DNA of 31,937 nucleotides from a virus. The stretch is from positions 1 through 31,937 of the IMG/VR virus record IMGVR_UViG_3300048837_000847; one strand, written 5' to 3'. The notes beneath the pieces were generated by a model that ran no database searches, was not told the origin of the DNA, and saw only the letters and a program-made list of their open reading frames with translations. Below, piece after piece: positions 3,531 to 10,150 of the stretch (its first letter is position 1; every line of letters starts with the position of its first letter). Made by a program: the position numbers and the translations under genes.

Positions 3531-3682
3531 GCTCTGCTCCTAAAAACAAAAAGCGCCTTACGAGTCCCCCCGGCAAGGGTTCGCGGTAAAGCAGTACCGC
3601 TAGACTCGTAAGACGCTCTATAGTGTTATGCCCCTGCTTAGGCAGCGCATTGTCAAGCAGTTGCCGCTGCCTGACAGGTACA
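3531..3682 (-). ncRNA. Structured 5' leader of the BRO-N gene (putative attenuator)
   Basis: About 145 nt lie between a putative promoter and the BRO-N ribosome site. Two inverted repeats interleave: a 7-bp pair (3665-3671 with 3641-3647) and a 6-bp pair (3655-3660 with 3634-3639). They could form a pseudoknot or two competing hairpins. A 15-bp stem with one G-U pair (3603-3617 with 3552-3566) encloses a perfect 6-bp hairpin (3583-3588 with 3595-3600) and is followed by TTTTTGTTTTT directly before AGGAG. This resembles an intrinsic terminator placed to control the gene. No open frame explains it. Confidence 0.6.
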
Positions 3683-4548: not shown

Positions 4549-5298
4549 ATGGTAGTAAAAGGGTGGTACTTTTCGGATGAGTCTCGCAAGCTGCGCTACG
4601 ACGCCGGCCGCGAGATTGCTATAGGCGTCGAGCATACGGTAAAGGGCTACCCCGAGCCGTGCAAACGTGGCCTACACGCCAGCGAGCGTATTCTTGACGC
4701 GCTACAATATGCGCCGGGGCCGATTATCTGGCGCGTCGAGCTGTCCGGGCGAATTAAACGTGGCGACGACAAGGTTGCGGCTACGAGGCGCAAGTACATA
4801 GCTGGCGGCTTAGACATAAGCGACATCTTGCGCAAGTTTGCCAGAAAGCAGGCTTTATCCGTGGCGCATTTGTGGGACATACCGGAGATTGTGCGGCGGT
4901 ATCTTGAGATTGGAGACGAGTTTATAAGGGCCGCCGCCTGGGCCGCCGCCTGGGCCGCCGCTAAGGACGCCGCCAGTGACGCCGCCTGGGCCGCCGCCAG
5001 GGCCGCCGCCTGGGCCGCCGCCAGTGACGCCGCCAGTGACGCCGCCAGGGCCGCCGCCTGGGCCGCCGCCAGTGACGCCGCCTGGGCCGCCGCCTGGGCC
5101 GCCGCCAGGGCCGCCGCCTGGGCCGCCGCCAGTGACGCCGCCTGGGCCGCCGCCAGGGACGCCGCCAGTGACGCCGCCTGGGCCGCCGCCAGGGCCGCCG
5201 CCAGGGCCGCCGCCGGGGCCGCCGCCGGGGACGCCGCATGGGCGGTTGCGCATAAGATGCTTGAGGATATGGTTTTGGCCGCGATCGGAGGCGACTAA
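4549..5298 (+). CDS. DUF7666-like protein with long Ala/Trp tetrapeptide repeat
   Basis: A 249-residue protein. Residues 1-90 match the DUF7666-type phage domain of unknown function: KGWYFSDESRKLRYDAGREI, PEPCKRGLHASERILDALQY, then a short beta segment. Residues about 126-230 are about 26 four-residue units of the form (A/D)-A-A-(W/S/R/G), for example DAAWAAARAAAW, predicted as a long continuous helix with one face of Trp/Arg/Ser, with 11 Trp in the tract. At DNA level this is a 12-bp repeat. It is first in the rightward operon, with GGAAGGGG upstream and a good promoter. Related proteins often carry such Ala-rich tails. The function is unknown; an oligomeric or membrane-associated helix is conjecture. 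Confidence 0.85.
   Translation: MVVKGWYFSDESRKLRYDAGREIAIGVEHTVKGYPEPCKRGLHASERILDALQYAPGPIIWRVELSGRIKRGDDKVAATRRKYIAGGLDISDILRKFARKQALSVAHLWDIPEIVRRYLEIGDEFIRAAAWAAAWAAAKDAASDAAWAAARAAAWAAASDAASDAARAAAWAAASDAAWAAAWAAARAAAWAAASDAAWAAARDAASDAAWAAARAAARAAAGAAAGDAAWAVAHKMLEDMVLAAIGGD
4930..5240. repeat. 12-bp tandem repeat tract
   Basis: About 26 imperfect units of the pattern GCCGCC-NNN-GNC in phase with the Ala-rich tail of the gene at 4549. The tract is open in other frames: the shifted plus frame reads Pro-Pro-Gly collagen-like units and the complement reads Gly-Gly-Pro-Gly units. The tract should be prone to slippage, so its length may vary between genomes or be misassembled. Confidence 0.9.
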
Positions 5299-6326: not shown

Positions 6327-6709
6327 CCGTCGCCGAATGGGCCAAGCGCCCCGCGCAGCCGATGCCGGTGATCGCGCCGACCGCTTCGCCGTCTGCGATG
6401 CGCGCCGCCTGGCTGCCGGAGCCGGACGCGCCTAGCTGGATGCTTCTTATGTCACCGGAGCGGCCAAAGACGCTGCACCGGGATTCCGACTGCTATAGCA
6501 AGACAACCGACGAAGAGCACGACGCGATGCTAGCCAAGCGCGCCGCCCAGGTCGAGGCCACGCAAAGGCGACGCGAGGCCGAAGCTGACGCGCGGGCCGT
6601 GGCACGGAAAGAACGCGAGGCGCTTGAGCGGAGGCTAAGGGAAGAGCGGGCGAAGGCAAACAAGCTCAAGGGCAGGCCAACGCATAAGCATGAGTTTTTG
6701 ATCGACTAG
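6323..6709 (+). CDS. Charged coiled-coil hypothetical protein
   Basis: A 128-residue last gene of the rightward accessory operon. I chose the ATG at 6323 over an upstream start at 6230, because it overlaps the preceding TGA as ATGA and follows GGAGGAG. Residues 1-60 are Pro-rich (KRPAQPMPVIAPTASPSAM), residues 60-115 form a long Glu/Arg/Ala coiled coil, and the basic tail ends KGRPTHKHEFLID. The gene is followed within 15 bases by a terminator hairpin. No homologue is recognised. Confidence 0.7.
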   Translation: MTVAEWAKRPAQPMPVIAPTASPSAMRAAWLPEPDAPSWMLLMSPERPKTLHRDSDCYSKTTDEEHDAMLAKRAAQVEATQRRREAEADARAVARKEREALERRLREERAKANKLKGRPTHKHEFLID

Positions 6710-6710
6710 G

Positions 6711-6780
6711 GCGCCCCCGCGCGGATTTGAACCGCCAGCCCCGGCCCTTGTTACAGGTGGCATAGCCTGGCAGGGGGCGG
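6711..6780 (-). pseudogene. Degenerate tRNA-like element
   Basis: On the minus strand a perfect 4-bp hairpin carries the loop TTCAAAT (GCGG-TTCAAAT-CCGC), the universal T-arm pattern, next to GGGGGC-G-CC, which pairs with GCCCCC about 60 bases upstream as an acceptor-like stem. A 4-bp D-arm-like hairpin (CAGG/CCTG) follows the 5' strand. Too few bases remain for an anticodon arm. The middle has some likeness to valine tRNAs. I regard it as a decayed tRNA or tRNA-like terminator loop. Confidence 0.35.
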
Positions 6781-6794
6781 GGTTTTATTTTGCC
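6711..6794 (+). terminator. Terminator between convergent genes
   Basis: After the stop at 6709 the plus strand has GCGCCCCC near 6712-6719 pairing with GGGGGC near 6774-6779, then GGGG and TTTTATTTT. It would end the rightward accessory operon facing the convergent gene that ends at 6785. The enclosed loop is long and itself contains a tRNA T-arm-like hairpin on the complement. Confidence 0.6.
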
Positions 6795-9502: not shown

Positions 9503-9529
9503 TTGACGGGTATTACAGTATTGTAGTAT
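9503..9529 (+). promoter_or_regulatory. Putative rightward promoter for the tRNA region
   Basis: TTGACG (9503-9508) with TAGTAT (9524-9529) 15 bp away; spacing is short, so the call is tentative. The spacer contains AGTATTGTA, also present at the 10683 promoter and at the late promoter near 28113. Transcription from here would cover the structured region, the tRNAs and the genes from 10151. Confidence 0.4.
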
Positions 9530-9728
9530 GGTACGAGTAGGGCCGGGCCGTATGGCTAAGGCTTAAACGCCGGCGGGCTAACGCAACTTCTTTATCAGTT
9601 GACGCCGGGAAAGACCGGAACGCGCGTTGCGCGTCATGTTATCACGGTAGCCGCTCCACCAATAACGGGCGGGCATTGTAAAGAACTCGGAATATCCGCC
9701 CTGGCTCCGTTGGAGATGGGCGGCACAT
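9530..9728 (+). other. Structured non-coding segment
   Basis: No convincing protein gene. Paired elements include CCGGCG/CGCCGG (9570-9575 with 9603-9608) enclosing CAACT/AGTTG with an 8-base loop, ACGCG/CGCGT near 9620-9634, and three mutually exclusive copies GGGCGG, CCGCCC, GGGCGG near 9667, 9697 and 9718. The middle copy can pair with either neighbour, giving two alternative folds. The function is unknown; it could be a 5' leader of the tRNA transcript. Confidence 0.45.
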
Positions 9729-9807
9729 GGAAGCGATGCCGAGATGACGTCCATCGGCTAGACGGCGCGCCCATACGCGCTAGCGGGTTCGGAGCCCGCC
9801 GCTTCCA
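9729..9807 (+). ncRNA. tRNA-like fold without an anticodon arm
   Basis: A 7-bp perfect acceptor-like stem (GGAAGCG with CGCTTCC) ends in A then ACC. It is preceded by a T-arm-like hairpin (GCGGG-TTCGGAG-CCCGC). A D-arm-like hairpin (GCCG/CGGC) follows the 5' strand after AT, and a 5-bp hairpin with loop CCCATA sits where a variable arm would be. The acceptor resembles serine tRNAs. There is no normal anticodon arm and the T-loop lacks A58. Its 3' strand overlaps the anticodon loop of the permuted tRNA-Trp, so both cannot mature from one transcript. Confidence 0.4.
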
Positions 9808-9877
9808 ACCCTGGAAGTGCAGGTTCAAATCCTGTCGTTCCCGATTGGGGGCGTAGTGTAACGGTTAGCACGCTAGG
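9803..9877 (+). tRNA. Circularly permuted tRNA-Trp (CCA)
   Basis: The 3' part comes first: anticodon loop TTCCAAC (9803-9809; U33, anticodon CCA, A37), stem CCTGG (9810-9814), variable AAGT, T-arm GCAGG-TTCAAAT-CCTGT (9819-9835), acceptor CGTTCCC (9836-9842) and G73. After a 3-nt linker ATT comes the 5' part: acceptor GGGGGCG (9847-9853), TA, D-arm GTGT-AACGGTTA-GCAC (9856-9871), G26 and stem CTAGG (9873-9877). The acceptor closes 7/7 (two G-U) and the anticodon stem 5/5 (one G-U). The 5' half resembles bacterial tRNA-Trp, and G73 plus CCA are Trp identity elements. Flanks CCCG (9795-9798) and CGGG (9878-9881) can pair and stack on the anticodon stem. Maturation would require joining 31 to 32. 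Confidence 0.8.
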
Positions 9878-9977
9878 CGGGGGTCAACCGTAGCCCTGCA
9901 AGTTCAAACGGTACTAGCCAAAGCGTAGTGCACTGCGCGGCGGCTAGCGCGTGGCCCCTGCGAAACGGGGCGTGTTT
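9878..9977 (+). other. Non-coding spacer between the two tRNAs
   Basis: No gene is seen. It contains an ACCGT/ACGGT hairpin near 9887-9912 with GTTCAAAC in its loop region, a GCGC-GGCGGCTA-GCGC hairpin that looks like an isolated D-arm, and GCCCC/GGGGC with an 8-base loop. These may be debris of further tRNAs or processing signals. I cannot assemble a complete tRNA from them in either order. Confidence 0.4.
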
Positions 9978-10084
9978 CGGGGTGTAGACAAGCGGTTAGT
10001 CAACCATGAACGGATGGCACTAGAAGCGAAAGCCGAAGCCATGGCGGGAATGGTCAATGGCGGGTTCGACTCCCGCTGCCCCGG
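9978..10084 (+). tRNA. tRNA with 35-nt insert in the anticodon arm (Pro-like)
   Basis: In normal order: acceptor CGGGGTG/TGCCCCG (7/7 with two G-U), TA, D-arm GAC-AAGCGGTTA-GTC, A26, stem ACCAT (10003-10007), a 35-nt insert (10008-10042), loop GGCGGGA (10043-10049), stem ATGGT, variable CAATG, T-arm GCGGG-TTCGACT-CCCGC, G73. Without the insert it is a textbook 72-nt cloverleaf. C1-G72 and the loop bases CGG-G37 suggest proline (CGG), but position 33 is G instead of the near-universal U. The insert is bracketed by direct CCATG repeats and carries its own ATGGC/GCCAT helix. Either an intron or a decayed gene. Confidence 0.6.
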
Positions 10085-10150
10085 CGATTTGTGCAGCTAT
10101 GCGGGCACCATGCACGCAGGCCAGCACGTTTTTAAAGCAAGGAGGCTAAA

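Follow-up and report, generated by a model that had tools for sequence, protein, structure and literature searches.

Circularly permuted tRNA genes, in which the 3′ half of the tRNA comes first and a complete cloverleaf forms only on rejoining, are found in red and green algae and in Thermofilum pendens. Their linkers measure 1 to 74 nt, and the junction often falls in the anticodon loop (PMC3978253). Permuted two-piece tmRNA (RF04321) similarly places the T-arm and acceptor 3′ strand ahead of the acceptor 5′ strand. The YrlA family of Y RNAs (RF02553) has a T-arm, an acceptor hairpin capped by a short loop, the dinucleotide TA, and a D-arm, in that order; the tRNA elbow nucleotides are kept, and both ends exit at the would-be anticodon stem. 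YrlA has been described as a mimic of the D, T, and acceptor arms of tRNA (PMC8394870), has been proposed to act as a competitive inhibitor of an anticodon nuclease (PMC7790460), and has already been noted in mycobacteriophages (PMC12282133). Since this mimicry has been described, its occurrence in phages noted, and an inhibitory role suggested, a permuted, capped tRNA topology is already known and works without rejoining.

We analyzed IMG/VR virus record IMGVR_UViG_3300048837_000847 over a single stretch of 31,937 nt (the window). The record represents a 31.9-kb phage with genes for a terminase, a portal protein, RecT-like and YqaJ proteins, a BRO-N/Ant antirepressor, a replisome organizer, and a DNA methylase. 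A preliminary description had proposed a circularly permuted tRNA-Trp gene here, with the 3′ part of the tRNA lying 3 nt before its 5′ part, and the two halves and their linker were recovered in exactly that arrangement (element C). Both halves were located by ARAGORN, a reciprocal partner search, and a permuted covariance model.

9803 to 9843, plus strand: 3′ half of element C, with loop TTCCAAC (containing CCA) at 9803 to 9809, anticodon strand CCTGG at 9810 to 9814, variable region AAGT, T-arm at 9819 to 9835, acceptor 3′ strand at 9836 to 9842, and G73 at 9843
9844 to 9846, plus strand: linker ATT (3 nt), which in the predicted fold forms with G73 a 4-nt loop, GATT, closing the acceptor stem
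9847 to 9877, plus strand: 5′ half of element C, with acceptor strand GGGGGCG at 9847 to 9853, TA, D-arm with GG at 9856 to 9871, G26, and CTAGG at 9873 to 9877

The topology of element C is that of a circularly permuted tRNA. When the halves are rejoined (9847 to 9877 followed by 9803 to 9843), ARAGORN calls a tRNA-Trp(cca) with a complete cloverleaf and stems of 7/7, 4/4, 5/5, and 5/5 pairs; on the native-order strand, neither ARAGORN nor Rfam finds a tRNA. The full closure of the acceptor (7/7) and anticodon (5/5) stems that had been proposed is thus borne out, with the qualification that G-U pairs make up 5 of the 21 (the acceptor stem holds two and the D, anticodon, and T stems one apiece), compared with a mean of 1.7 and no instance of five among 54 parsed phage tRNAs. 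U33, CCA, A37, and G73 are all present, as expected of tRNA-Trp, as are the D-loop GG and the T-loop reported earlier. A covariance model built on 49 phage tRNAs and permuted in silico (R1) gave the native sequence from 9803 to 9877 a score of 54.0 bits across all 77 positions, the runner-up in the window reaching 14.8, although E-values from such home-made models are rough.

Every adjacent pair of tRNA genes likewise places a 3′ half ahead of a 5′ half, an order that element C shares with any ordinary phage tRNA cluster. Ordinary adjacent phage tRNA genes also score 49 to 54 bits with R1, but they contain mispairs. Because such neighbors reach similar values, the R1 score is not decisive by itself; we dropped it as sole proof and took full pairing of both cross-half stems as the decisive feature. 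Among 506 adjacent canonical tRNA pairs from phage loci, a 7/7 acceptor occurred in 4 and a 5/5 anticodon stem in 11, but none had both. No fully paired permuted unit appeared in 300 first-order shuffled genomes with linkers of 2 to 74 nt permitted, and in a reciprocal search over 7 to 12.5 kb each half of element C was the best partner of the other. A chance origin of the arrangement is excluded. What distinguishes element C from an ordinary cluster is that its halves have no intact canonical partner and pair fully with each other; a canonical gene, with the 5′ half before the 3′ half and intact pairing, was sought and rejected, only a degenerate downstream copy being present. DNA searches of phages and of E. 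coli returned no relative of the native arrangement, and one pattern match (L004) proved to be merely two ordinary adjacent tRNAs.

Element C sits among further tRNA-like sequences, none of which, in this genome, is a canonical tRNA according to ARAGORN and Rfam.

9728 to 9807, plus strand: element B, tRNA-like (T-arm search, minimum-energy fold, sequence reading)
9885 to 9908, plus strand: degenerate second copy of the 3′ half, CAACCGTAGCCCTGCAAGTTCAAA (alignment, shuffles)
9978 to 10085, plus strand: element D, in canonical order (ARAGORN intron mode, sequence reading)
6705 to 6785, minus strand: degenerate tRNA-like sequence with T-arm GGCGGTTCAAATCCGCG (T-arm search)
9503 to 9532, plus strand: sigma-70-like promoter TTGACG-18-TATGGT, reading into the cluster (consensus scan)

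The acceptor of element B (TGGAAGCG/CGCTTCCA) pairs 8/8 and its T-stem 5/5, with an odd loop (TTCGGAG), no GG in the D-loop, and no 7-nt anticodon loop. Its minimum-energy fold is cloverleaf-like (P = 0.037), and its 3′ end, at 9807, overlaps the putative anticodon loop of element C. In element D the acceptor pairs 7/7, the T-stem 5/5, and the anticodon stem as ACCAT (10003 to 10007)/ATGGT (10050 to 10054), and 42 nt stand in place of the 7-nt anticodon loop. ARAGORN rendered element D as a tRNA-Phe with a 24-nt intron, which we rejected, as a standard 5-bp anticodon stem with the 42-nt loop fits better. Elements B and D therefore keep tRNA helices with disrupted anticodon arms. The preliminary description had found no canonical-order partner for either half of element C nearby. 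This holds for an intact partner; however, the copy at 9885 to 9908 follows the 5′ half in canonical order and is identical to the 3′ half of element C at 18 of 24 positions (0 of 1,500 shuffles; gapped local alignment P = 0.023), with no T-stem or acceptor strand. Additional repeats are shared between C and D and between B and D. The promoter scan found one site against 0.4 expected in shuffles, a weak signal.

The tRNA-like cluster is missing from three comparable relatives, the syntenic genomes G001 and G006 and the fragment G007. In G001 the stretch ahead of the VRR-NUC gene is comparable and short there. G006 has an ordinary tRNA-Gln, and a structured-looking noncoding stretch (L030, 600 to 845) lies right before this intact tRNA-Gln(TTG). 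Elsewhere in the window, a noncoding stretch at 3552 to 3617 holds a long imperfect hairpin (AGCGCCTTACGAGTC ... GACTCGTAAGACGCT) with a structured interior, and an alanine-rich tandem repeat of GCC-rich units at 4930 to 5240 lies within the C-terminal portion of a DUF7666 protein, with a similar repeat in G006.

Folding of the native strand points away from an anticodon arm. Two features compete with it.

9801 to 9818, plus strand: hairpin GCTTCCA-ACCC-TGGAAGT, pair probability 0.85 to 0.90 in four contexts
9795 to 9881, plus strand: outer stem CCCGCC (9795 to 9800)/GGCGGG (9876 to 9881), closing the alternative fold

For 9795 to 9881, the fold with the anticodon stem and a CCCG/CGGG extension was predicted at −27.0 kcal/mol and that with the outer stem and hairpin at −39.7 kcal/mol, an advantage of ~13 kcal/mol for the latter in free energies that ignore tertiary contacts and modification. 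Of the flanking CCCG and CGGG suggested to extend the anticodon helix, CCCG (9795 to 9798) is also part of the T-arm-like hairpin of element B. The pair probability of the native anticodon stem was 0.0 in all four sequence contexts, and in the predicted fold the putative CCA anticodon is buried inside the 9801 to 9818 hairpin. The T-arm and the GATT-capped acceptor hairpin were predicted in 4 of 4 contexts and the D-arm in only some.

A search of IMG/VR with T-arm and D-arm patterns and a pairing filter yielded ~50 permuted modules outside ARAGORN tRNA calls. Their acceptor stems are capped by GAAA, TTCG, GCAA, or similar loops, and many share an upstream GGTTACTTC motif and a downstream GTTCCC-like end. 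In four loci examined, Rfam YrlA matches reached 27 to 42 bits, several covering the full model. A TROVE/Ro60 protein was encoded in 13 of 14 tested phage contigs with such modules (L262, L258, L307, L283, L200, L271, L189, L193, L222, L198, L273, L203, and L180), a co-occurrence that strongly links RNA and protein in phages. YrlA-type Y RNAs with capped acceptors form arrays in L307 (277, 418, 585, and 737), L283 (8315, 8465, and 8619), and L258 (4178 and 4330), and many arrayed phage Y RNAs have a hairpin before the T-arm with a 7-nt anticodon-like loop (U33, A37, and various triplets). In cyanophage S-CRM01, a YrlA-like RNA with a UUCG-capped acceptor lies where no feature is annotated (HQ615693.1, 132222 to 132336; L013, 3583 to 3697), and the S-CRM01 genome gave no TROVE match. 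L106 carries a fully paired permuted module within a scrambled tRNA cluster (9819 to 9894, minus strand; 60.2 bits; GGAA cap), and no Ro60 was found in that contig. Capped permuted modules with a GCAA loop, an ACTTT/AAAGT stem, and a long outer stem also lie in phage tRNA clusters at L056 940 to 1085 and L096 7141 to 7262.

Element C has the tRNA-like effector module with a capped acceptor hairpin that characterizes YrlA, and its ends likewise exit at the would-be anticodon stem. YrlA differs in its long stem for Ro binding, which in phages has the consensus GGYGGCG..GGTTACTTC.., and in usually lying near a Ro60 gene. The window shows neither of these and offers a potential 5-bp anticodon stem and a plausible CCA loop. 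The YrlA model matched the window at 16.7 bits over positions 30 to 81 only (cut-off, 69), and canonical tRNA pairs match it in the same way; a phage Y-RNA model gave element C 39.4 bits compared with 37.5 for ordinary adjacent tRNAs. The flank of element C lacks the GGTTAY motif, at which the alignment to the latter model is gapped, and the record contains no PF05731 (Ro60/TROVE) match. Lacking a full-length match, the GGTTAY flank, and a Ro60 gene in the record, element C was rejected as a member of the YrlA family. It was also rejected as a permuted tmRNA, the RF04321 match at 9783 to 9858 being weak (21.1 bits, far below the cut-off of 47); unlike permuted tmRNA, the window has no recognized tag frame or pseudoknots, and the D-arm in the 5′ half is that of an ordinary tRNA.

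The reading that we rank first, with a probability of about 0.42, makes element C a mimic derived from tRNA, formed when tandemly duplicated copies lost their outer halves; we rank it above decay of a tRNA cluster, and decay above a permuted tRNA that is matured. Element C would most likely act as transcribed, without cutting and rejoining. The T-arm, the acceptor capped by its 4-nt loop, and the D-arm would together form a tRNA elbow, with the 5′ and 3′ flanks closing the structure in place of an anticodon arm. Because a degenerate outer copy exists, tandem duplication followed by outer-half loss is suggested as the origin: a tRNA gene was probably duplicated and its outer halves decayed, the fragment at 9885 to 9908 being the putative survivor of the outer copy. 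A tRNA-like shape appears to have been kept without decoding, since 0 of 12 cross-half pairs are broken and elements B and D keep their helices while the anticodon loop is lost; the evidence for such retention, as opposed to pure decay, is moderate. The order of parts shared with YrlA is consistent by analogy with a mimic, as is the predicted preference for a fold without an anticodon stem. Together with B and D, element C would bind host tRNA-handling proteins as a scaffold or decoy, candidates being an exonuclease, a modification enzyme, or an anticodon nuclease. Against this reading stand the intact tRNA-Trp loop signature, the absence of the locus from the three relatives, the missing Ro60 gene and GGTTAY motif, the low YrlA score, and a phage Y-RNA score like that of ordinary tRNAs.

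Second, though on balance unlikely, element C may be a functionless relic of adjacent, tandemly duplicated tRNA genes in a decaying cluster, in which the 5′ half disappeared from the first gene and the T-arm and acceptor 3′ strand from the second, leaving inner halves that look permuted. The degenerate copy, the repeats tying C and B to D, the noncanonical state of all tRNA-like sequences in the genome, the excess of G-U pairs, the relatives without the locus, and the similarly scrambled cluster in L106 all speak for this reading. It fits less well with the complete lack of cross-half mismatches, although the T-stem and acceptor of the outer copy have decayed past recognition, or with the helices likewise retained in B and D.

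We regard it as distinctly improbable that element C is a true permuted tRNA-Trp gene whose transcript, in infected bacteria, is matured by enzymes that have so far not been tied to a role of this kind. Circularization at the anticodon loop would fall to a nuclease and a ligase from host or phage, RNase P and a 3′ enzyme would remove the linker, and CCA would be added. The perfect rejoined cloverleaf agrees with this course, as do a linker and a junction within the range of known permuted genes, and the joint presence of U33, A37, G73, and CCA is the main argument remaining for it. Unlike the algal and T. pendens genes, however, element C lies in a bacterial phage, has a competing hairpin, and lacks a bulge-helix-bulge motif at the junction, where there is just CCCG/CGGG with an 11-nt one-sided bulge; its loop is partly shared with the acceptor strand of element B. 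No RNA ligase, RtcB, or tRNA-splicing endonuclease was recognized among the phage proteins scanned. Of the permuted tRNA-Trp gene first proposed, the permuted, nonrandom topology stands, while a cut-and-rejoined transcript is unsupported because of the missing motif, no recognized machinery among the proteins scanned, native anticodon-stem pairing near zero, G-U-rich stems, and absence from three relatives.

Less probable again is that element C is a divergent YrlA-family Y RNA that serves a Ro60 protein of the host, which we consider very unlikely: the topology equals that of the YrlA effector module, and such RNAs occur in S-CRM01 and other phage records that have no Ro60 gene, but the match is confined to the module and resembles that of canonical tRNA pairs, and the GGTTAY flank is absent. 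Least credible is the chance adjacency of two unrelated tRNA halves, since, although GGGGGCG also pairs 7/7 with CGCTTCC of element B and acceptor matches thus come easily in a GC-rich region, the 506 adjacent pairs and 300 shuffled genomes largely refute it.

We know of no earlier permuted tRNA gene in a bacterial system. If element C is matured, it would to our knowledge be the first, and it would point to an unknown pathway of RNA cutting and joining. If it is a relic, it would offer a snapshot of the tandem-duplication route thought to yield permuted genes. If it is a mimic, phages would be putting the permuted tRNA fold known from Y RNAs to use beyond the Ro60 system, perhaps to counter defenses that cut tRNAs. 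The IMG/VR survey also shows that phage tRNA-like RNAs of the permuted, capped type escape annotation tools in large numbers.
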